Source: a virus
Strand: one strand, 5' to 3'
DNA: 64,000 nucleotides
Virus record (IMG/VR): IMGVR_UViG_3300013117_000236
Span: 1 to 64,000 of that record
Below the pieces are notes generated by a model, which saw nothing but the letters and a program-made list of their open reading frames with translations, did no database searches and was not told the origin of the DNA. A program made the translations under genes and the position numbers. Of this stretch, positions 8,688 to 64,000 are shown in pieces (position 1 is the first letter of the stretch; each line of letters starts with the position of its first letter).

Positions 8688-8990
8688 TTACTCAGCTGCT
8701 TCTTCTTTTCCTGTGTTATTTTCTGTTCTAATGAAGTATGCGGTCTTGTCCACATATCTCCTGCCAACCTTTTTGTCGCGGTATAGGTTGTTCAGTGCCT
8801 GAGTTACTTTTGTCTTTGCGTTGCTGTCAGTTAGCCTTAGTACTTCAACAACAGCCACAACGTTCATACCTTCCTCTTCGGAAAGAGCGTTGAGGACACT
8901 ACCACGGAAAGAAGGTCCGCCTTCAGGTCTCTTCTCTTCTCCTGCTTCGAACTCTTCCATAGAGATTGTATTTCTTGCTTCGTCTGCCAT
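8688..8990 (-). CDS. Winged-helix regulator, paralogue of 11101-11370
   Basis: 100 residues. An acidic N-terminal tail is followed by a wHTH core (SVLNALSEEEGMNVVAVVEV, then KTKVTQALNNLYRDKKVGRR with a hydrophobic beta wing). The recognition segment VTQALNNLYRDKK matches VTRALNNLVRHKR of the gene at 11101, so the two are paralogues. AGGAGGTGAATAA precedes the ATG. Likely a viral transcription regulator transcribed alone, with a hairpin after its stop. Confidence 0.75.
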   Translation of the reverse strand: MADEARNTISMEEFEAGEEKRPEGGPSFRGSVLNALSEEEGMNVVAVVEVLRLTDSNAKTKVTQALNNLYRDKKVGRRYVDKTAYFIRTENNTGKEEAAE

Positions 8991-9004: not shown

Positions 9005-9158
9005 TGTAAGGTTAATCGGGTGCAAAACTTTGTATTATGATAGTTATATTTGTTTTAATAGTTTAAATATGTGTCGTTTTACGAAATGCTATTGCTTGTG
9101 CTCGGTTTTGAGTTTTGTTAGATTTTTGTCCCTTAAGAGGGGGGAATCCTCTTAAAAC
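9005..9158. other. Intergenic: promoter area of the winged-helix gene and hairpin of the gene to its right
   Basis: The minus strand holds AT-rich TATA-like sequence (CATATTTAAACTATT around 9057-9071), a plausible promoter for the gene starting at 8990. The right end holds a hairpin described separately. No reading frame of note. Confidence 0.4.
9133..9155 (-). terminator. Hairpin downstream of 9159-9404
   Basis: Perfect 8-bp stem TTAAGAGG/CCTCTTAA with a 7-base loop, three bases after the stop of the leftward gene. Placement suggests a transcript end or 3' stabiliser; a U-run is not present. Confidence 0.45.
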
Positions 9159-10055: not shown

Positions 10056-10148
10056 TTATATAAAACGACGTCCTCGGCATTCGCCACATAATACTAATTG
10101 GCCATACTCGAAGACAAGTTCGCTTCCACTACAATTCGTGCACACCAT
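10056..10148 (-). CDS. Zinc-ribbon mini-protein, 30 aa
   Basis: Thirty residues with CTNC at 3-6 and CGEC at about 21-24, a minimal zinc ribbon. GGTGAAACT precedes the ATG. First gene of a leftward operon with a leader of about 130 bases from the TATA element near 10290. Confidence 0.55.
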   Translation of the reverse strand: MVCTNCSGSELVFEYGQLVLCGECRGRRFI

Positions 10149-10277
10149 AGTTTCACCATTGTATTATTGGGGAGTTGTTAGAATCTGTCCCCTCCTGCTC
10201 AGAATCATGCCAGTTCAGTTAGAACCAGTCATCGTCCGCCCTTGTGTTCAACCAAGGACATCATTTTCCTATTAATA
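10149..10277 (-). other. Untranslated leader of the 10148 leftward operon
   Basis: About 130 bases separate the TATA element at 10278-10301 from the ATG at 10148. Inside are small inverted repeats, for example CCTTG/CAAGG around 10234-10251 and GTTC/GAAC around 10213-10224, so the leader can fold. No reading frame. No known riboswitch recognised. Confidence 0.35.
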
Positions 10278-10301
10278 ATTAACTTGATACTTTAAATACT
10301 T
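10278..10301 (-). promoter_or_regulatory. Promoter element shared with 12308-12331
   Basis: A 24-base block containing TATTTAAAGTAT on the minus strand. The same block with one mismatch lies at 12308-12331 in front of another leftward gene, which argues for a common promoter recognised by the same factors. It drives the operon that starts at 10148. Confidence 0.55.
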
Positions 10302-10375
10302 ATCGTAGTAGTTAAACATATATTTTCTACTAACTAGGTTGTAGGATAGTGCGGTAAAATTTTAGCTTTTTACCT

Positions 10376-10434
10376 CTTAAAATGCACAAAACCAAGCACC
10401 TGCGCTAGTGTTGTTTAGTTTTTTAGTATTTTAC
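10376..10434 (+). repeat. Left arm of a 59-bp inverted repeat
   Basis: The first 18 and last 21 bases match, as reverse complement, the last 18 and first 21 bases of 10655-10713 exactly; the central 20 bases differ. It begins CTTAAAATGCACAAAACC. Strong candidate element of a replication origin or recombination site. Confidence 0.8.
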
Positions 10435-10654
10435 GGCCTGTGGGTAAAAAATAGAATAAGAAAGTAAGAAAAAGAAAGAGAAAGAGAAAGTATATATATC
10501 GAGTGCATCGAAATAGGGGGGATATAATATATATTATAATAATGTGTTTATTCTTATACTTCACATACACCCCGGGCATGCATCACCCCTTCCACCTCCC
10601 CCGACACACTCGCCCATACTCTATCTATCTATTACTTATATATACCCAAAGGGG
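10435..10654. other. Spacer between inverted-repeat arms: purine tract, AT block, C-rich block
   Basis: About 220 bases with no gene. From left to right: an A/G-only tract around 10457-10490, an alternating TA stretch (10491-10500), a G-run at 10515-10520, an AT-only block to about 10545, then a C-rich stretch (10568-10612). Strand asymmetry and an AT-rich block of this kind fit an unwinding element. Confidence 0.5.
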
Positions 10655-10713
10655 GTAAAATACTAAAAAACTAAAATGCAGAGCCTCTTGCGAGCGGTTT
10701 TGTGCATTTTAAG
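10655..10713 (-). repeat. Right arm of the 59-bp inverted repeat
   Basis: Reverse complement of 10376-10434 over its outer 18 and inner 21 bases, exactly, with a diverged central 20-base box. The centre of each arm has its own sequence, as if the arms carry different recognition boxes between common ends. Confidence 0.8.
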
Positions 10714-10787
10714 ACTTAAAACGCTAAAATACATCACGGGAAAAAGAGCGCGGGATTTTTGTGAAACATAATAAAATGGGCGCCAGA

Positions 10788-10806
10788 GTTTAGTGACAAA
10801 ACTAAT
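10788..10806 (+). repeat. Dyad repeat, copy 1
   Basis: GTTTAGTGACAAAACTAAT, a 19-mer that is itself a dyad (TTAGT, six bases, ACTAA). Identical to copy 2 at 10840. Probable binding site of a dimeric protein. Confidence 0.7.
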
Positions 10807-10839
10807 AATGGGCGGGCGAACGAGGGAGTGGGCGGCCGG

Positions 10840-10858
10840 GTTTAGTGACAAAACTAAT
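10840..10858 (+). repeat. Dyad repeat, copy 2
   Basis: Identical 19-mer to the one at 10788, 52 bases away (close to five helical turns), so both could be bound on one face of the helix. Confidence 0.7.
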
Positions 10859-10866
10859 CTATGGGC

Positions 10867-10884
10867 ATTAGTGCAGGTACTAAT
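10867..10884 (+). repeat. Dyad repeat, variant with perfect arms
   Basis: ATTAGT, GCAGGT, ACTAAT: the same dyad with a different six-base spacer, 9 bases after copy 2. Conservation of the arms and not the spacer supports protein binding. Confidence 0.65.
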
Positions 10885-10975
10885 ACATGGGCGAATGTTT
10901 ATATGGGCGGGGGGGTTGATACGGTGGGTGTGATGGGCTCACAGGTCCCCGTTATAACACAAATGAAAGAAAGAA

Positions 10976-10992
10976 GGGGGGCTTTCACCCCC
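10976..10992 (-). terminator. G/C hairpin ending the 11612-10992 leftward genes
   Basis: Five G-C pairs around the loop CTTTCA, overlapping the last base of the stop codon of the 31-aa gene; on the minus strand it is followed by CTTCTTTCTTTC, a pyrimidine tract suited to termination before the origin-like repeats. Confidence 0.55.
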
Positions 10993-11100: not shown

Positions 11101-11370
11101 CTATATCATCAAACATATATCTCCTTTGAAATAATAGGGTATATCATTATGATATAGCCTATTCAAGCGCTTATGTCTTACGAGATTGTTTAAAGCTCTC
11201 GTTACTTTCTTTTTATTTTTTTCGTTTGTTACTTTTAAAGTCTCTATAACGTCCGTTTCTGTATATGGTGTTTTTTGTTTTATTGTTTGCTCAACAGCTC
11301 CCATAAAGGAGCTTCTTTTCTTTTTACCTTTTTTTATCAATTGCTCTAAACTAATTTTTGTTTTTGACAT
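11101..11370 (-). CDS. Winged-helix regulator, paralogue of 8688-8990
   Basis: 89 residues: a Lys-rich N-terminus, then a wHTH with VIETLKVTNEKNKKKVTRALNNLVR and a beta wing (RLYHNDIPYYFKG). The conserved VT-ALNNL-R-K- block marks it as a paralogue of the protein at 8688. It lies beside the repeat-rich control region and is a good candidate to bind the dyads there. Its 5' leader resembles that of the next gene upstream. Confidence 0.72.
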   Translation of the reverse strand: MSKTKISLEQLIKKGKKKRSSFMGAVEQTIKQKTPYTETDVIETLKVTNEKNKKKVTRALNNLVRHKRLNRLYHNDIPYYFKGDICLMI

Positions 11371-11423: not shown

Positions 11424-11612
11424 TTAACAGCCTACGAAAAACTCTATAATCACTTTATTTGCGTATACGTTTAATATACGTATACAAATAGATTTGTTAT
11501 ACTTTTTAGATTGTAATTCACATTCGTTATATAATTCTTTCATTGAAACTTTGTTGTTAATCTCGTAAATGTTTGTGTTAATTCTTTTAAACTTTTTATT
11601 AGTTATTCTCAT
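11424..11612 (-). CDS. Hypothetical protein, 62 aa
   Basis: Basic N-terminus and a helix followed by a hydrophobic beta-rich end (RILNVYANKVIIEFFVGC). The ATG at 11612 is chosen by analogy with the leader of the neighbouring gene (GTGAT, four bases, ATG). Not recognised. Confidence 0.5.
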   Translation of the reverse strand: MRITNKKFKRINTNIYEINNKVSMKELYNECELQSKKYNKSICIRILNVYANKVIIEFFVGC

Positions 11613-11740
11613 AGACATCACATAAAGTATATTTTACGATATATATGTTAGTTGATGTTGCCTGCATCAAACGCATTCTTTTAACGCGCTCTCATTACTT
11701 TATATTATCCCGTAGTTCTTTAAATACGTTGCGGTCGGGT

Positions 11741-11856: not shown

Positions 11857-11875
11857 GTTTAGTGCCAAAACTAAT
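11857..11875 (+). repeat. Dyad repeat, distant copy
   Basis: GTTTAGTGCCAAAACTAAT, differing by one base in the spacer from the two copies near 10800. It places the same putative binding site 1 kb away, on the other side of the two early genes. Confidence 0.65.
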
Positions 11876-11950
11876 TCGTATATACTTTAATATATATATT
11901 AATATATATACCACACAATATACCCACTAAAACACATATATTCTATCATA

Positions 11951-12037
11951 TACTTTAATATATATCATAATATCCTATATACTTTAATATATATCATAAT
12001 ATCCTATATACTTTAATATATATCATATATCCTATAT
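11951..12037 (+). repeat. 29-bp tandem repeat, three units
   Basis: Units start at 11951, 11980 and 12009; the third lacks three bases. Each holds TACTTTAATATATAT, close to the TATA core TACTTTAAATA found in the 10278 and 12308 promoters. A further degenerate copy lies near 11883. There are no spacers of varied sequence, so it is not a CRISPR array. Confidence 0.75.
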
Positions 12038-12067: not shown

Positions 12068-12268
12068 TCAATCATATATTTCTAATATATAATATAATAT
12101 ATCAAATACATCTTCCCTTTTTTTATCATTCCAATTATCAACATTCATTTCACTTTCATCACAATATTCAATAAATAATTCATATAACTTTTTTAAATCA
12201 ATTTTCATATTTTTATTTTTCAATTTATTAAATATTTTTTTACATTCATTTTCCATTTCATTTTTCAT
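12068..12268 (-). CDS. Acidic helical protein, 66 aa
   Basis: Very AT-rich gene coding for a helical protein: Lys/Asn-rich first half, acidic second half ending in hydrophobic helix (VFDILYYILEIYD). AAGGAGGTGATAAA before the ATG shows it is translated. Base composition is more extreme than that of its neighbours. Function unknown; possibly a small host-takeover protein. Confidence 0.55.
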   Translation of the reverse strand: MKNEMENECKKIFNKLKNKNMKIDLKKLYELFIEYCDESEMNVDNWNDKKREDVFDILYYILEIYD

Positions 12269-12580
12269 TTTATCACCTCCTTATTATTATATTATTCTAT
12301 ATATATTATTAACTTTATACTTTAAATACTTTTATTCCTACTTAAATATATATATTAAACTATATAAATAATTAATCATTAATATTTAAACACATATTTT
12401 CAAACACATATTTTCAAACATCGATTCTGAAACATAGGTAATAGAGTATATATATACTTACAACCGGTACCTCCCTCACGAATTGTGCAATCTGAAACAC
12501 CTCGGTCACTTTCGGAACTTTCAATCTGTCACTCTGGGGATGTAAAAAATCAAACGCCCCGATGCACAGCCCATCACATA
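12269..12580. other. Divergent intergenic region
   Basis: No gene. It contains the promoter of the leftward 12268 gene, two tandem copies of AAACACATATTTTC (12388-12401 and 12402-12415) and, from about 12460, a less AT-rich segment with GATGCACAG-type short repeats. Separates the leftward and rightward gene blocks. Confidence 0.45.
12308..12331 (-). promoter_or_regulatory. Promoter element shared with 10278-10301
   Basis: A 24-base block with minus-strand TATTTAAAGTATA, one mismatch from the block at 10278. Lies about 45 bases before the ATG at 12268. Confidence 0.55.
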
Positions 12581-12611: not shown

Positions 12612-12754
12612 TACTGACGACGCACAAAATCAGCTGATGGTAAAAATTTCGCTACCACGATGGAGAAAAGCCGATACGCAAGTTGATAGGAACTCGGTAA
12701 TACCCTGACGGACATCATTTGATGTGCACGGTTGTCAGATAGTGGATTGTGGAT
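12612..12754 (+). ncRNA. Structured 5' leader or small RNA (unrecognised)
   Basis: Between the TATA box and the first gene lie about 140 bases without a frame, less AT-rich than the rest, ending in a two-tier hairpin: CTGAC (12705) pairs with GTCAG (12734), and inside it ACATCA pairs with TGATGT (12712-12725). Could be a leader switch, a small RNA or an operator. No known family recognised. Confidence 0.4.
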
Positions 12755-27666: not shown

Positions 27667-28125
27667 ATGACAATATACACTATCAAGAAAGGCGTTAGAG
27701 ATGACTTGAGAAGTAATATAACTGACCCTCTAGATAGAAAGAGTACAGAGGGTGGTCAGTGGGTTCATATAGGCGATTTATCTAATGTAGGAAAGACGCC
27801 AGTAATTTATATTGAAGATGTTGTTTCTCCCGACCAAGTTAATTTTATTGGTGGTAGTCAAGCGAATTTTTGGGCACTTGATGTTCACATTGTTGGAAGT
27901 GACTCAGATAGAGGAATTTCTCCAATTGATGGAGGAACTGTAATAGTTACAGATTCTGATAAAATAAGGAATGATTTAGTACAGGCAACTAAAAATAGAC
28001 TACTAGCCGCAAGAGTTTCTATAACAGGTGCTTCTACTATAACATTTGAAAGAGTTTTAGGTACGTTCAGAATACCTAATAATAAAAGGTCTACTACTAT
28101 GAGATATATTGCTCAGAGTGAATAA
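27667..28125 (+). CDS. Tail terminator/neck protein candidate, 152 aa
   Basis: N-terminal helix (TIKKGVRDDLRSNI), then beta strands with a conserved-looking LDVHIVGSD and a helix (DKIRNDLVQATKNRLL), the pattern of tail-terminator proteins of the gpU/gp17 type. Last structural gene before the glycan cargo. Confidence 0.55.
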   Translation: MTIYTIKKGVRDDLRSNITDPLDRKSTEGGQWVHIGDLSNVGKTPVIYIEDVVSPDQVNFIGGSQANFWALDVHIVGSDSDRGISPIDGGTVIVTDSDKIRNDLVQATKNRLLAARVSITGASTITFERVLGTFRIPNNKRSTTMRYIAQSE

Positions 28126-28126
28126 T

Positions 28127-29416
28127 ATGGCTAAAAGGATATTGTTCGTTACGGATGGGATATTTACACCATCAGGATTTGGTAATGTAGCGAAAAATAT
28201 AATTGAAAATCTTTGCATTTCCAAAGTACCTAATGATTTCGAGATTGCGCATTTATCTTGGCAATATACTGGTAACACAATGGATTATTATCCAAAAGGA
28301 TGGGAGAAACCATTAAAGTTATATCCTGTTAATAATCACCGTTTTGGACAAGATGTAATTGGTTATGTTTTAGGTGATTTCAAACCTGATATTGTTTTAA
28401 CTATTGCTGATTTGTGGATGACTAATTATTTTGCTAACCCAGATATTCAGAAAGTGCTAAAAGAAGGTAATATTAAGTGGTATTGGTACTTACCTTTAGA
28501 TAGTAATTGTTTACCACCAATGTTTAAATCTCAAGTAACTGCGGCAGATAAGATAATTGCCATGTCTGATGCAGGTAGCTCTGTATTAAAGAAAGAGGGA
28601 ATAAAACATGAGTTAATACATCATGGAGTTAATACAGAAGTATTTAAACCATTAGAAGGTATAACAAAGAAAGAGTTAAGAGCCAAAAAAGGTCATCATG
28701 TTAATAGGTTCATAATTGGTTGTGTTAATAGGAATCAAGATAGGAAACAGTTACCAAGGTTAGTTAGAGCATTTTCATTATTCCAAAAGAAAAATGATAA
28801 GAAAGATGTGTTTTTACATTTACATATGGACCCTATGGACCCTGCTAATTTGTCTCAGGATTTTAATGGGAGAAAGTTTCCACATACAATTCAGGCAATT
28901 ATGAGTTATAATGTTAGAGATTATGTAGGGTTTAGTTCAGATGTAAAGTCATATTGTAATGGAACAACTATTGAGGGAATGGCTGATGTGTATAATGTTT
29001 TTGATATTCATGCAAGTTCAACAAGTGGAGAAGGTTTTGGATTATCTACTCTTGAATCAATCGCGTGTGGGGTTCCTAATGTGATTACAGACTTCACAAG
29101 TTCCCGTGAACTTGTAGAAGGGCATGGTGAGCTTGTAAAGGTAAAAACTTACATCTTTGGAACATTTGGTACTGATAGAGCAATAATAGATGAAGAACAC
29201 ATGGTAGAAATATTTGAAAAGCTCTATGATGATTGGAAGCATGGAGGTAAGTTATTAAAAGAATACAGTGATAAAGGTTTAAAACATAGCGAAACATATA
29301 ATTGGACAAGAAACATAGTTCCTCAGTGGAAAGAACTATTTGAAAATGAGGAAAATAAGAAAGTGATAAGGTCAAAAAAGGCAGTGCCTCAAGCTGCTGT
29401 AGAAATTAGACTTTAA
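28127..29416 (+). CDS. Glycosyltransferase family 4
   Basis: 429 residues, GT-B fold. N-terminal FVTDGIFTPSGFGNVAKN, C-terminal domain with HASSTSGEGFGLSTLESIACGVPNVI containing the E-x7-E signature that binds the sugar nucleotide. First gene of the cargo region, with its ATG overlapping the preceding stop (TAATATGG). Retaining sugar transferase; acceptor unknown. Confidence 0.85.
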   Translation: MAKRILFVTDGIFTPSGFGNVAKNIIENLCISKVPNDFEIAHLSWQYTGNTMDYYPKGWEKPLKLYPVNNHRFGQDVIGYVLGDFKPDIVLTIADLWMTNYFANPDIQKVLKEGNIKWYWYLPLDSNCLPPMFKSQVTAADKIIAMSDAGSSVLKKEGIKHELIHHGVNTEVFKPLEGITKKELRAKKGHHVNRFIIGCVNRNQDRKQLPRLVRAFSLFQKKNDKKDVFLHLHMDPMDPANLSQDFNGRKFPHTIQAIMSYNVRDYVGFSSDVKSYCNGTTIEGMADVYNVFDIHASSTSGEGFGLSTLESIACGVPNVITDFTSSRELVEGHGELVKVKTYIFGTFGTDRAIIDEEHMVEIFEKLYDDWKHGGKLLKEYSDKGLKHSETYNWTRNIVPQWKELFENEENKKVIRSKKAVPQAAVEIRL

Positions 29417-42724: not shown

Positions 42725-42915
42725 TAAGAAAGTTAAGAAAAGTAGGAAATTTAACAAATAGGCTATATTTAACTAAAGATATCCATCAAATTCTGCAATT
42801 TCGGCTGATTTACTCAAGGGTACGAGTAGAACATTTGATTACAAATGTGTCTTACAGCTTTATAAATTATATCGCTAATAATAACATTATAAAAGAATTT
42901 AAAGGAGAGTTATGA
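42703..42915 (+). CDS. Hypothetical basic protein, 70 aa (uncertain)
   Basis: Basic and mostly helical; overlaps the previous gene by 22 bases and the next start by ATGA. A weak GGAGATGTTAGT lies before the ATG. Fits the overlap chain, but composition is unremarkable and the gene could be spurious. Confidence 0.4.
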   Translation: MDAINRLVRKLRKVGNLTNRLYLTKDIHQILQFRLIYSRVRVEHLITNVSYSFINYIANNNIIKEFKGEL

Positions 42916-44441
42916 CTGAAAAACAACCATTAATAAGTGTGATAATGCCAGTATATAATCAGAAGAAAGAATACTTAAAGAAAGCAATATTTTCTGTATT
43001 AGACCAAACATTTAGAAACTTAGAATTAATAATAGTTGATGATGGTAGTGATAAGCTAGTTAAGTTAGAAGACTACCTTTTACCGAGTAATATAGAGAGT
43101 AGAAATGTTAAGTTAATTAGAAAAGAAAATGGTGGTGTTGCTTCTGCACTTAACGCTGGTATTAATGCCATGAAAGGTCAATGGTTTGCTTGGTTATCAA
43201 GTGATGATATATGGACACCAGATAAGTTACATAAACAAGTAGATTATAAATTAAAGAACCCAGATGCAAAGGTAATATACTCTGATTGGGAGTATATTGA
43301 TGAAAATGGTAATCACATGAAGTATGAAACTGAACCTATATTTAAAAACTTAGAAGAAGTACAGTTTCACCTTTGTCATAAGTTTTTTGGGTGTGGGTCA
43401 ACTATTATGATTCAAAAAGAAGTGTTTGATAAAGTTGGTAAATTTAATGAAGAGTATAGGTCACACGAAGATTATGAAATGTGGTTTAGGATTGCTAAAG
43501 AGTATATGTTTCACAAAGTTCCTCTAGTACTAATGCAGTATAGAGAACATGGTAAAGCATTAAGATATACAGCTAATGCTATAGGGGGAACATTTAATAA
43601 AGTGAGAGAAGATGGGAGGAAATTATTGGATTATTATGGTAAATTAGATAAAGTAAGTATTGTAATTGCCGCATATAACGTTGAAAACACAATTTGTGGT
43701 TGTTTAGATATAGTATTAAATACTAGGGGAGTTGATGAAGTGTTTGTAATTGATGATGCAAGTACTGATAATACAAGAAAGATATTAGATGGATTCTCCC
43801 ATCCAAATTTAATAATCATAAATAATGCAAAGAATATGGGGAGAGCAATAACCCGAAATAAGGGATTAAAGAAAGCAAAAAATCATCTAATTGCTACAAT
43901 TGATGGTGACATTATTCCAGACTTTAATTGGTTAGCAATTTTGAAAAAGAAGATGGAAAATATGTGGTTAGATGTTTGTGGAGGTTCAGTAAGGTGGAAA
44001 TCTGTAAGTGGAGGTTACTGGACGGATTATTATGATTTTTATCAAACTCAAGTTGCAAAAAGAAGTATTGGTACATGTTTAACATTATTTAAGAGAAGTG
44101 CGTTAGAAAGTGTTGGATTCCTAGATGAAGCATTAACAAGTGGTGAAGATAGTGAAATGATGTTTAGAATGCAACAAAAAGGATTTCAATTTTACAAGAT
44201 TCATGATTTACTAGGAACACATATAGAAGAAAGAAATTTGTTTGATGTAATAAAGAGACATTATGAATACGGAGTAGATAGGGCAATAATGGTTAAAAAA
44301 CACCCAGATAAAGTGAAAGGACAATTTAACGAGAACGAAACTCAACATAATCCTGCAGAAATTGTAAATATATTACAAGAATTATTAAAATTAATAGGTA
44401 CGTTAGGATTTAGAGAGGAATATTTAAAAGATGGGAGATAG
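42912..44441 (+). CDS. Double-domain glycosyltransferase (GT2-GT2)
   Basis: 509 residues with two complete GT-A domains. Domain 1 (about 8-230): ISVIMPVYNQKKEYLKKAI, IIVDDGSD, SSDDIW. Domain 2 (about 245-480): VSIVIAAYNVENTICGCLD, VFVIDDASTDNT, TIDGDIIPD. Bi-functional enzymes of this type polymerise alternating sugars or add two sugars in sequence. Last glycan gene of the cargo. Confidence 0.85.
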   Translation: MTEKQPLISVIMPVYNQKKEYLKKAIFSVLDQTFRNLELIIVDDGSDKLVKLEDYLLPSNIESRNVKLIRKENGGVASALNAGINAMKGQWFAWLSSDDIWTPDKLHKQVDYKLKNPDAKVIYSDWEYIDENGNHMKYETEPIFKNLEEVQFHLCHKFFGCGSTIMIQKEVFDKVGKFNEEYRSHEDYEMWFRIAKEYMFHKVPLVLMQYREHGKALRYTANAIGGTFNKVREDGRKLLDYYGKLDKVSIVIAAYNVENTICGCLDIVLNTRGVDEVFVIDDASTDNTRKILDGFSHPNLIIINNAKNMGRAITRNKGLKKAKNHLIATIDGDIIPDFNWLAILKKKMENMWLDVCGGSVRWKSVSGGYWTDYYDFYQTQVAKRSIGTCLTLFKRSALESVGFLDEALTSGEDSEMMFRMQQKGFQFYKIHDLLGTHIEERNLFDVIKRHYEYGVDRAIMVKKHPDKVKGQFNENETQHNPAEIVNILQELLKLIGTLGFREEYLKDGR

Positions 44442-57040: not shown

Positions 57041-57214
57041 TCACCTCTTTACTTTTTTAATTGTTATTTCTATTTTATCGTCATTTTCTAGATTTAGAGT
57101 TCTAGCTATCTTCCCCTTATTAGAAACCCATAACTCTCCTTGAATTCTTCCAAATTCAAAATTTATTTTATTCCATTGTATTTTAGTTCGGGCACTAAAA
57201 GTTACGCTTGTCAT
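57041..57214 (-). CDS. Small beta protein, 57 aa
   Basis: Found by reading the gap. Beta-rich with GELWVSNKGKIARTLNLEND, similar in layout to AbrB/SpoVT or translin-like small DNA-binding proteins, but the match is weak. ATGA overlap with the Cas4-like gene. Confidence 0.5.
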   Translation of the reverse strand: MTSVTFSARTKIQWNKINFEFGRIQGELWVSNKGKIARTLNLENDDKIEITIKKVKR

Positions 57215-60600: not shown

Positions 60601-60784
60601 TCAATCTCTCCTTTAATCTCTGTATCTTAGTGAATAATAAAAATGACCATGCACAAATATCTAGGATTTCTTCTTCTACTTCGTCCTCGAGGTCTCTGTC
60701 CATAAAGGTATCTTTACCGTATTCAAGCTCCCCGATTTCTAACCTTTTGTTAATTCTTTCTGTAAACTCTTTTGATAGTTTCAT
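60587..60784 (-). CDS. MazG-like small protein candidate, 65 aa
   Basis: Helical; EVEEEILDICAWSFLLF resembles the E-x3-E...E-x2-D metal motif of MazG/dUTPase-like nucleotide pyrophosphohydrolases as seen in small phage proteins. Overlaps folE by ATGA. If right, it may clean up the nucleotide pool during modified-DNA synthesis. Confidence 0.5.
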   Translation of the reverse strand: MKLSKEFTERINKRLEIGELEYGKDTFMDRDLEDEVEEEILDICAWSFLLFTKIQRLKERLNEKR

Positions 60785-61380
60785 AATTTTATCAACTTGA
60801 AAAATTCGTTCTTTGGACTTTTACCTTTTGGTTCTTTTAGGAATACACCTTTTACTGCACTAGTTACAAAATCGCCTTCGTCGCCTTGTAGTTCTGCGCA
60901 CATATGTCTCGCCTTTATAGTTACTACTACTCCAAGTGGTTTTACGTTATCATTTATCCATTCTGTAATTTGTTTTGTCATTCTCTCTTGTATTTGTAAT
61001 CTAGCAGCGTAATATTGTACAACCTTATCTATTTTGTTCATTCCTAATATTTTCTTATCTGGGATAATACCTACATGCGCTTCACCAAAAAAAGGTACTA
61101 TGTGATGTTCACAGAATGACCAGAACTTTACCTTCCTGATTAATAGTTCATTATACTCATCATCATTATCAAAAACAGTTATGGGGATTATATTTTTACC
61201 GAATTCACTATTTCTTGTGGTCTCATTCATAATTTGTAACTTATTTCTATAACTGTAAAAACATTTTTTATATAACCTCGCAACTCGTTCCGGTGTACAA
61301 TCTATTCCCTCACGTTCAGTATCTTCTCCTATCTCTTGTAAAATTGTAAGTATTGCGCTCTCAACATTTTTTTCAATCAT
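60781..61380 (-). CDS. folE: GTP cyclohydrolase I (FolE)
   Basis: 199 residues: FWSFCEHHIVPFFGEAHVG with zinc ligands C90 and H93, ILGMNKIDKVVQYYAARLQIQERMTKQI, and the third ligand C161 in RHMCAEL. Converts GTP to dihydroneopterin triphosphate, the first step towards preQ0. In the same leftward operon as queD, queE, queC and dpdA. Confidence 0.93.
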   Translation of the reverse strand: MIEKNVESAILTILQEIGEDTEREGIDCTPERVARLYKKCFYSYRNKLQIMNETTRNSEFGKNIIPITVFDNDDEYNELLIRKVKFWSFCEHHIVPFFGEAHVGIIPDKKILGMNKIDKVVQYYAARLQIQERMTKQITEWINDNVKPLGVVVTIKARHMCAELQGDEGDFVTSAVKGVFLKEPKGKSPKNEFFKLIKL

Positions 61381-62107
61381 TTAATACCTCCTTAATCCAT
61401 CTTACATTCCAATAAATCGCTAATTTTTGTTCTTCTGTAATTTCACTTATATTAAAATAATCTTTTGGTCGTTTTACGTTATCTGGAGTTGTACCCATTA
61501 GTTTTCCGAATAAACCTAATTTAAATGGCATTGTGCTATCAATTGATGTTATATAAGGTTTATTTAACTCAGATAAATTTTCCCAATTATCTAACGCTAA
61601 TAAGTGTATATTTTTCTTAATAACGAAACTAGATTCGATTAACTTTAACAACTCAGTTCTCGGTATATTTGTGTACTGTTCTAACATGTGGTCTGGTATT
61701 GCTATTGTATTCACTCTATGCATTTCGTTTAATATGCTAAACGCTTCTACGAACTTACCAATATTTTTCGCTAATGGTATTACCATTATTTTTAAATCCT
61801 TTGGTACTACTGAGAGCATATCTTTCAATTCTTTTGTAAATTGTTTATCACCATAATAAAAAGTGTCAGGTAATACTATATAATGTGCACCAATTAATTT
61901 CGCTTTCTCAACTAATTCTGGTACTTTAGCTGCTTCTAATCTTTCAAAATATCCATTATCTAAAATTTTTAATCCTTCTAATTTTTTCCATTCTTCTGTA
62001 TACTTATTACCATCTTCAATTAAATGAGCTACAGCTAGATGTCTATCACTACACCAAAAGTATTTATCGTTCACAAATGCTGTTGGAAGTATATTAACGA
62101 ATTGCAT
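61373..62107 (-). CDS. dpdA: DpdA-like DNA 7-deazaguanine transglycosylase
   Basis: 244 residues, TIM-barrel TGT relative: LKILDNGYFE (about 46-55), IVLPDTFYYG, LAIPDH-type IAIPDHMLEQY, and IHLLALDNWE...YITSIDSTMPFKLGLFG, which parallels the viral DpdA signature with the catalytic Asp in SIDS. Would exchange guanine in viral DNA for preQ0. ATG 62107 is two bases after the queC stop. Confidence 0.78.
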   Translation of the reverse strand: MQFVNILPTAFVNDKYFWCSDRHLAVAHLIEDGNKYTEEWKKLEGLKILDNGYFERLEAAKVPELVEKAKLIGAHYIVLPDTFYYGDKQFTKELKDMLSVVPKDLKIMVIPLAKNIGKFVEAFSILNEMHRVNTIAIPDHMLEQYTNIPRTELLKLIESSFVIKKNIHLLALDNWENLSELNKPYITSIDSTMPFKLGLFGKLMGTTPDNVKRPKDYFNISEITEEQKLAIYWNVRWIKEVLND

Positions 62108-62108
62108 A

Positions 62109-63167
62109 TTAATCAACTAAAGGGTCTTTCATTTCAGCTTTTTGAAAAGCTTCTATACGTTCAACACAAGCTCCGCACTTCATACAGGGATTTACTTTCC
62201 CTTTATAGCAAGTATGTGTTAAACTATAATCTACATTTAACTTTTTTCCAAGAATTGCTATGTCTCCCTTATCCATTTTCAAAAATGGTGCAATAACTTC
62301 AATTCCATCTTGTACAATAGTATATTTTTTATCTCCTTTACCATGATTTTTACCTGGTATTTTTTCAAAAAAGTATTGATGTTCTTCATACCATTTTCTA
62401 AATTGTTCTTGTCTTTTTTCTAATTTAATACTATCTTTCATTAAATCAATAAATAATCTACAATCATGTCCAAATAGTTTGTAGGCAAACATTTCTTTTC
62501 CAGATTTCTTATGAATACCTTTTGAATGTACGCACCCCCTATTAAAAAAGAACTTTTTTATTTCTTCTAATATTACTCTATCATTTTGTGTAAATAATAC
62601 TATTGGCCAGAATTCTCTATCTTTTTCTTTTGTAGTATGTCTCGAATCTTGACCTAAAGTACCTTCACATTCCCAAAAAGCTCTAACAAATTCCGGTGTT
62701 AAAGTTCCTCTTTCTGCATTTGATGATTGGTCAAATACAGTATTATTAAATCCATCTAGAAATCTCTTTCTACAATCCCAATATATTTCGTGGTCTCCTG
62801 AATGAGCCCCATAAAAAATCTTTGTAATTTTCATTCCTCTAGCAAATGCAGATACTACACTTAACATTAACATATTTCGCATTGGAACAACTGTTTGGTT
62901 CATTGTAGATGATGTATAATGTCCTTCTGGAACTTCCCAATTTTCTCTTGTTAATGATGATGGTGATACCAAATTTATTACTTTTAAATCTATAATAAAG
63001 TGTTGAACACCTAATTTTTTACACGTTTTTTTCGCACATTCAATTTCTCTCTTATGTTTCTGTCCGTAATTGAAGCTAATAGCGTAAGGACTATATCCTT
63101 TATCCAATACATAATATAAAAGTGTCGTTGAATCCATCCCACCCGACAAAACAACTACTGCTTTCAT
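62109..63167 (-). CDS. queC: QueC (7-cyano-7-deazaguanine synthase) interrupted by a LAGLIDADG domain
   Basis: 352 residues against about 220-235 for normal QueC. N-part: SGGMDSTT at 8-15, NYGQKH, VPMRNMLML, GAHSGDHEIYWDCRKRF (to about 136). C-part: GIEVIAPFLKMDKGDIAILG and the zinc set C320, C328, C331, C334. Between, about residues 146-280, is a foreign domain: LTPEFVRAFWECEGTL followed by FTQNDRVILEEIKKFF and YKLFGHDCRLFIDLM, a LAGLIDADG endonuclease layout. The reading frame is uninterrupted. ATG 63167 follows AAAGGAGTGTAAAT. Confidence 0.88.
   Translation of the reverse strand: MKAVVVLSGGMDSTTLLYYVLDKGYSPYAISFNYGQKHKREIECAKKTCKKLGVQHFIIDLKVINLVSPSSLTRENWEVPEGHYTSSTMNQTVVPMRNMLMLSVVSAFARGMKITKIFYGAHSGDHEIYWDCRKRFLDGFNNTVFDQSSNAERGTLTPEFVRAFWECEGTLGQDSRHTTKEKDREFWPIVLFTQNDRVILEEIKKFFFNRGCVHSKGIHKKSGKEMFAYKLFGHDCRLFIDLMKDSIKLEKRQEQFRKWYEEHQYFFEKIPGKNHGKGDKKYTIVQDGIEVIAPFLKMDKGDIAILGKKLNVDYSLTHTCYKGKVNPCMKCGACVERIEAFQKAEMKDPLVD
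62320..62732 (-). mobile_element. In-frame LAGLIDADG insertion inside queC (approximate limits)
   Basis: Codes about residues 146-282 of QueC. The domain keeps the acidic residue of the LAGLIDADG helix (ECEGT). It lacks intein ends (no N-terminal Cys/Ser block A and no His-Asn block G), so it is a bare endonuclease domain or the ORF of an intron read in frame. Confidence 0.72.
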
Positions 63168-63169
63168 AT

Positions 63170-63883
63170 TTACACTCCTTTCATATTCCCCCATAATAAT
63201 ACTTGTAATTGTGGTAATACTTTCAGATCTTTTATCTGTGATAATAATTCATCGTTCTTAATTGTGTCTATTAATTTAGCATAACTCTTTAATAAGTAAT
63301 GCAAACTATTAGGTGCACCTGGTGCTGGATTAAGTGTTTGAACTACAAATTTCTCATCGGGGTAACTCTTACATAACATCTTGAGAAACTCTAAATCCTT
63401 TTCATCACCAACAACAACCTTAATTTCTCTATCAGTAATTAATGGATTATTTATAAATCTATTAAATACATCATCATTAAATTTCATTCCTGAACTCGGT
63501 GGTTTCGGTGATAATGTTAAATAATCTACTTCACTAAACCAATCCTTAAATATACTCCCTTGTGTTTCTACTAAAATAAAATAATTAAACGAGTGTAAAT
63601 AAATAATTAACTCACCTAATTCGTGTATTGCAGGGTTACCTCCACTAAATACTACACTATTACATCCTAAACTTCCTAGAGCATCTCCTATTGCTTGCTT
63701 ATTCATCTCTTTCCATTCCTTACCAAATTTTTTCTCATCTCGCGCATATTGTGTGTCACACCATTTACAATTAAAATCACAACCGGCGAATCGCACAAAT
63801 GAAACTAGTTCTCCAATATTGTACCCTTCACCTTGAATTGTCGGTCCGAATATCTCTACAATCTTGAATAGTTTTTCTTTCAT
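63170..63883 (-). CDS. queE: QueE (7-carboxy-7-deazaguanine synthase), radical SAM
   Basis: 237 residues: EIFGPTIQGEGYNIGELVSFVRFAGCDFNCKWCD with cluster cysteines C35, C39, C42 (C-x3-C-x2-C), VVFSGGNPAIH, and a C-terminal LSPKPPSSGM. Ring contraction of carboxytetrahydropterin to CDG. ATG 63883 is chosen over 63925 since homologues start at this point and it overlaps the queD stop (ATGA). Confidence 0.92.
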   Translation of the reverse strand: MKEKLFKIVEIFGPTIQGEGYNIGELVSFVRFAGCDFNCKWCDTQYARDEKKFGKEWKEMNKQAIGDALGSLGCNSVVFSGGNPAIHELGELIIYLHSFNYFILVETQGSIFKDWFSEVDYLTLSPKPPSSGMKFNDDVFNRFINNPLITDREIKVVVGDEKDLEFLKMLCKSYPDEKFVVQTLNPAPGAPNSLHYLLKSYAKLIDTIKNDELLSQIKDLKVLPQLQVLLWGNMKGV

Positions 63884-64000
63884 GCTAAATGCCCCGTATC
63901 CGCATATGAGTTCTCTGTTTCCCAAACTTTAACTCTTATTCCCATTATTATCGTTTTAACATCTGCTAATTCTTTTACTATATCTCTAATTTTGAACGCT
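63880..64000 (-). CDS. queD: QueD C-terminus (6-carboxytetrahydropterin synthase), partial
   Basis: The last 40 residues of a leftward gene cut by the right edge: VKELADVKTIIMGIRVKVWETENSYAD. The V-VWET-x-NSYA end is the C-terminal signature of QueD/PTPS proteins, holding the pterin-binding Glu. It completes the preQ0 pathway with folE, queE and queC. ATGA overlap with queE. Confidence 0.7.
   Translation of the reverse strand, partial: AFKIRDIVKELADVKTIIMGIRVKVWETENSYADTGHLA

Follow-up and report, generated by a model that had tools for sequence, protein, structure and literature searches.

Which function may be served by a long inverted repeat in noncoding DNA of a virus possessing its own replication genes? 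The window, i.e., the whole stretch of 64,000 nucleotides analyzed here, is part of a virus record of 68,546 bp. Both ends of this record share 119 identical bases, hence the genome was treated as a circular map of 68,427 bp (68.4 kb). It encodes PolB, an RFC small subunit, an MCM-like ATPase and TerL, and the window is best read as DNA of an uncultured tailed virus of archaeal type. Self-encoded replisomes are found in many archaeal tailed viruses. Among the matches listed, the annotated PolB proteins nearest to that of the virus include those of Halorubrum tailed viruses (Hafunaviridae, approximately 28% identity) and of T4-like phages. Relatives more than approximately 30% identical were detected neither in IMG/VR nor in GTDB by searches with PolB (for the PolB profile, among the matches listed), TerL, the MCM-like ATPase and a capsid-region protein, and searches with peptides or arm DNA revealed no close relatives among 2.9 million viral contigs and 84,980 genomes.

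Apart from the replication genes, genes for FolE, QueC, QueE and QueD are present (window 60781-63925 and L004:3880-4290). The virus is therefore likely to make preQ0, which is possibly used for modifying its DNA. A 247-aa protein encoded amid these genes (61373-62116) matched no family; that it is a base-exchange enzyme is a guess. QueC (62109-63194) comprises 361 aa; its matches to the QueC profile fall into two stretches apart from each other, as if the protein contained an in-frame insert of ~120 aa. A free-standing LAGLIDADG endonuclease-like ORF (L004:5016-5528) overlaps the RFC small subunit gene at its end. Glycosyltransferase-like genes (28109-29416 and 42912-44441) lie within the rightward cluster.

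Anatomy and significance of the inverted repeat

The two 59-bp arms (10376-10434 and 10655-10713), each consisting of 18, 20 and 21 bp, and the 220-bp spacer are located exactly where the preliminary description had placed them (Table 1). The same applies to the spacer composition, with a purine run (10466-10490), a TA block (~10521-10545) and a C-rich tract (~10570-10615), the left half being purine-rich and the right half pyrimidine-rich. By contrast, the full element is larger than the 59-bp arms suggested. Under loose gap costs, similarity spans all of 10359-10730 (61.7%, E=5e-31), giving a quasi-palindrome with abrupt outer ends.

Table 1. Features of the inverted repeat and of the DNA surrounding it (positions in the window).
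Feature	Position	Strand	Remarks
Promoter-like 63-bp sequence	10270..10332	-	AAGTATTTAAAGTA box at 10288-10301; 78% repeated at 12300-12362
Whole quasi-palindromic element	10359..10730		372 bp, axis 10544.5; outer ends ATTTTAGC / GCTAAAAT
Left arm, outer perfect block	10376..10393		CTTAAAATGCACAAAACC, 18 bp
Left arm, centre	10394..10413		6/20 matching
Left arm, inner perfect block	10414..10434		TTTAGTTTTTTAGTATTTTAC, 21 bp
Spacer	10435..10654		220 bp; purine-rich left half, TA block, C-rich right half
Right arm, inner perfect block	10655..10675		
Right arm, centre	10676..10695		
Right arm, outer perfect block	10696..10713		
Five TGGGCG	10777..10909	+	within 133 bp, at 10777, 10809, 10829, 10888, 10904
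Three TTAGTN6ACTAA palindromes	10789..10883		at 10790, 10842, 10868; two are the identical 18-mer TTTAGTGACAAAACTAAT
GC-rich hairpin followed by a T-rich stretch	10966..10992	-	likely terminator of the right-hand leftward operon
Winged-helix-like DNA-binding protein, 89 aa	11101..11370	-	paralog of 8688-8990
Three 29-bp tandem repeats	11948..12037		TATACTTTAATATATATCATAATATCC..., 98% matches; within the least stable genomic DNA

The inverted repeat is real, an imperfect palindrome far beyond chance. Its best 59-pair window matches in 45/59 positions, which makes it the best inverted repeat of the 68.4-kb genome; the next place reached 37/59, and the best inverted repeats of 12 simulated Markov genomes only 35-37/59. 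A blastn comparison of the region with its own genome returned arms of 88 bp (E=2.7e-14). The scanned parts of HRTV-25 and HRTV-27, which are distant viruses, contained no long quasi-palindrome comparable to it (best 35-36/59), and these two together with the other scanned loci, distant and partly incomplete, did not yield an equally strong inverted repeat either (maximum 38/59). Comparing the arms with each other, matches amount to 18/18 in the outer block and 21/21 in the inner block, while the centre is near chance. This partition is highly significant (39/39 versus 6/20, Fisher P=3e-9), as is the clustering of mismatches (14/20 in one 20-bp window, P ~1e-5 by shuffling). The mosaic of blocks and centre is not the product of random decay.

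Since the two arms agree in no more than 77% of their positions, a chimeric inversion introduced by assembly was rejected. Two readings at the RNA level were also discarded. The arm mismatches were not enriched for G-U pairs, which speaks against a selected RNA hairpin, and separate hairpins in each arm, which would account for the differing centres, gave z-scores of only -1.5 to 0.6. Rfam yielded just one sub-threshold chance match for the region.

The surrounding candidate control region

The element is situated in a gene-free area of ~840 bp (10149-10991), the largest defensible one, as had been claimed. Larger gaps listed by a mechanical gene caller (59157 and 11088; 0.95-0.99 kb) are covered by PolB and by ORFs 11101-11370 and 11424-11621. 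To the left, the area borders on a small leftward CxxC ORF starting at 10148. Since further leftward ORFs follow on the right-hand side (11101-11370, 11424-11621 and 12068-12268), the division between leftward and rightward genes, close to which the element was thought to lie, is in fact 2 kb away (~12.3-12.75 kb). The element sits inside a leftward gene cluster, with a likely terminator on one side and a putative leftward promoter on the other. Copies of the 63-bp promoter-like sequence with its TTTAAATA box were identified at 9041-9103 (only 60% alike), 10270-10332 and 12300-12362, every one of them upstream of a leftward gene group. The left-hand operon should be served by the box at 10288, a second copy of which is found at 12318.

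On its right, the element is followed by two clustered motifs. TGGGCG was observed five times within 133 bp, compared to 0.19 occurrences expected in 850 bp, and TTAGTN6ACTAA three times, compared to 0.003 expected, with another copy at 11859. The corresponding 18-bp dyad TTTAGTGnCAAAACTAAT is found at 10789, 10841 and 11858 (11858-11875) and as a variant at 10868; no other site of the genome resembles it with fewer than three mismatches. A fifth TTAGTN6ACTAA at 57183, outside the control region and near a leftward ORF start, is likely due to chance. The 8-mer AAAACTAA, which makes up half of the palindromes next to the element, is also contained in both inner blocks. This hints at a common binding protein for the inner blocks and the 18-bp palindromes; the evidence is weak, because the arms copy one another. 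Two small winged-helix-like paralogs sharing 33% identity are encoded on either side of the element, one of 100 aa (8688-8990) and one of 89 aa (11101-11370). The structural model was of moderate confidence (pLDDT 65), its best structural match (E 0.15) is presumably the Hop2 winged helix, and the Pfam match to TBPIP/Hop2 (E 0.00095) was below the Pfam cut-off.

On the circular map, the cumulative GC skew is flat from 10.0 to 11.75 kb and reaches its minimum at 12,658. As the skew tracks gene direction, it is not able to single out the inverted repeat. The minimum is 2 kb from the element and is located beside the 29-bp repeats and the genomic DNA that melts most easily. Of the 100-bp windows, 2.2% are weaker than the spacer, and of the 25-bp windows, 0.13% are weaker than its TA block; the weakest windows of the genome lie at 11.88-12.39 kb. 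Skew minimum, 29-bp repeats and least stable DNA are thus found 1.2-2 kb to the right of the inverted repeat, and the iteron/AT-rich array at 11.9-12.4 kb is a better candidate for a conventional origin core or unwinding site than the inverted repeat.

Possible functions of the element

The element is most likely a protein-binding cis element that helps to start genome replication or to switch on genes, and not an inversion switch. Tentatively, we favour a bound element of the viral replication/early-transcription control region (10.15-12.75 kb), which would probably be part of the origin. Perfect blocks on both sides of a differing centre of constant length are the pattern expected of paired binding sites and argue for this reading. 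Further points in favour are that the strongest inverted repeat of the genome is noncoding, flanked by terminator and promoter, adjoined by dyads and TGGGCG boxes and situated in the region where the skew turns, and that the virus encodes PolB, the RFC small subunit and the MCM-like ATPase. The origin function suggested in the preliminary description is possible, as the element belongs to a 2.6-kb control region in which the skew flattens and then turns and repeats are nearby; skew minimum, iterons and weakest DNA, however, are elsewhere. The spacer is not the DNA easiest to melt, no match to orc1/cdc6 (TIGR02928) was obtained in the virus, and ORB or mini-ORB motifs in the region showed no convincing match (at least three mismatches). 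A host Orc1/Cdc6 protein could act on the virus.

It is conceivable that each arm offers two binding blocks of 18 and 21 bp, separated by 20 bp (approximately two helical turns), and that both arms are arranged mirror-wise about the asymmetric and partly easily melted spacer. A virus-encoded initiator or regulator may bind all four blocks, perhaps with a bridge between the arms, and might assemble a DNA-opening complex for replication near the leftward promoter at 10288. Opening would take place either in the TA block of the spacer or, at a distance of 1.2 kb, in the AT-rich array of 29-bp repeats. No experimentally mapped origin of an archaeal tailed virus was encountered in the literature searched. 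With a defined 2.6-kb candidate control region, comprising the quasi-palindrome, the 18-bp dyads and the 29-bp iterons, origin mapping and the search for an initiator would become testable.

Somewhat less likely, and ranking second, is a purely transcriptional function without any role in replication. In this case, the element would be an operator or enhancer pair situated upstream of the early leftward promoter (10288), to which the winged-helix paralogs or another viral regulator of this type would bind. The element would then belong to an ordinary viral control region. Its end is only ~60 bp upstream of the promoter-like box, the adjoining clustered 18-bp dyads are typical of dimeric regulators, and the element is flanked by genes for small winged-helix proteins. 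The intergenic promoter repeats and the complex bidirectional promoter region of HF2 provide an analogy (PMC8707807). On the other hand, a symmetric structure of 372 bp is large for this role, and nothing of this kind accompanies the promoter copy at 12318, which indicates that the element is dispensable for that promoter class.

Returning to the favoured binding element, a more far-reaching version seems improbable, namely a new Orc-independent type of archaeal-virus origin whose virus-encoded initiator would bridge the two-block mirror arms and which would fire together with the separate 29-bp iteron/AT-rich array.

There is a slim chance that the locus is a relic, either of an old inverted duplication or of a decayed miniature inverted-repeat transposon. 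An element which is quasi-palindromic throughout, ends abruptly, carries terminal inverted repeats and contains no convincing ORF would fit this origin, but the mismatches are strongly clustered rather than scattered and the flanks (...GCGGTAAA / ACATCACG...) show no target-site duplication at the ends. Moreover, the element exists as one copy in its own genome and the inner 21-mer was absent from all 84,980 genomes and from the viral contigs searched. The sole match in the search with arm DNA was one outer-block 18-mer in an unrelated bacterial prophage-like contig, which lacks the inner block. Equally hard to credit, if not more so, is a role in packaging (e.g., as a pac-like site of the terminase), in genome segregation or in another nucleoprotein complex. 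A G-rich repeat cluster next to paired inverted boxes would suit any large nucleoprotein complex, and the terminal repeat of the assembly points to a genome that is circular or permuted, but the gene for the large terminase subunit lies 5.7 kb from the element. A site-specific inversion switch flipping the 220-bp spacer, earlier proposed with the two centres as recognition cores, is very unlikely in spite of the asymmetric spacer between inverted arms, since both sites need the same crossover core while the centres do not match each other (in principle, the core could be inside the perfect blocks instead), and the genome gave no match to tyrosine (Phage_integrase) or serine (Resolvase) recombinases, the two families searched. 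A recombinase supplied by the host could conceivably act instead.

Comparison with known systems

Origins composed of iterons and an AT-rich region occur in plasmids and phages. The control region of the virus has 29-bp tandem repeats in very unstable DNA in common with them. Unlike in these origins, no known Rep protein was identified and the iterons are 1.2 kb away from the inverted repeat. In halovirus HF2, promoters are located within intergenic repeats, and repeated boxes occur in a promoter region that is complex and bidirectional (PMC8707807). In both archaeal tailed viruses, AT-rich promoter sequences as well as boxes recur in intergenic DNA, and the 63-bp promoter-like repeats recall the 58-bp class I repeats of HF2 in kind, not in sequence (PMC8707807). 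The HF2 repeats are, however, mainly direct (PMC8707807), which separates them from the inverted element.

In oriC1 of Sulfolobus (ORB2-DUE-ORB3), inverted boxes flank an AT-rich unwinding element and both boxes are required (PMC12141716). The viral element differs from oriC1 by the lack of an ORB sequence and of an Orc1/Cdc6 gene in the virus, by two blocks per arm and by a compositionally asymmetric spacer of 220 bp, whereas the dissected oriC1 segment measures 130 bp (PMC12141716). What the two have in common are a noncoding location and inverted boxes that flank an AT-rich segment (PMC12141716), and it is this arrangement which, together with the block pattern of the arms, argues for a binding element.
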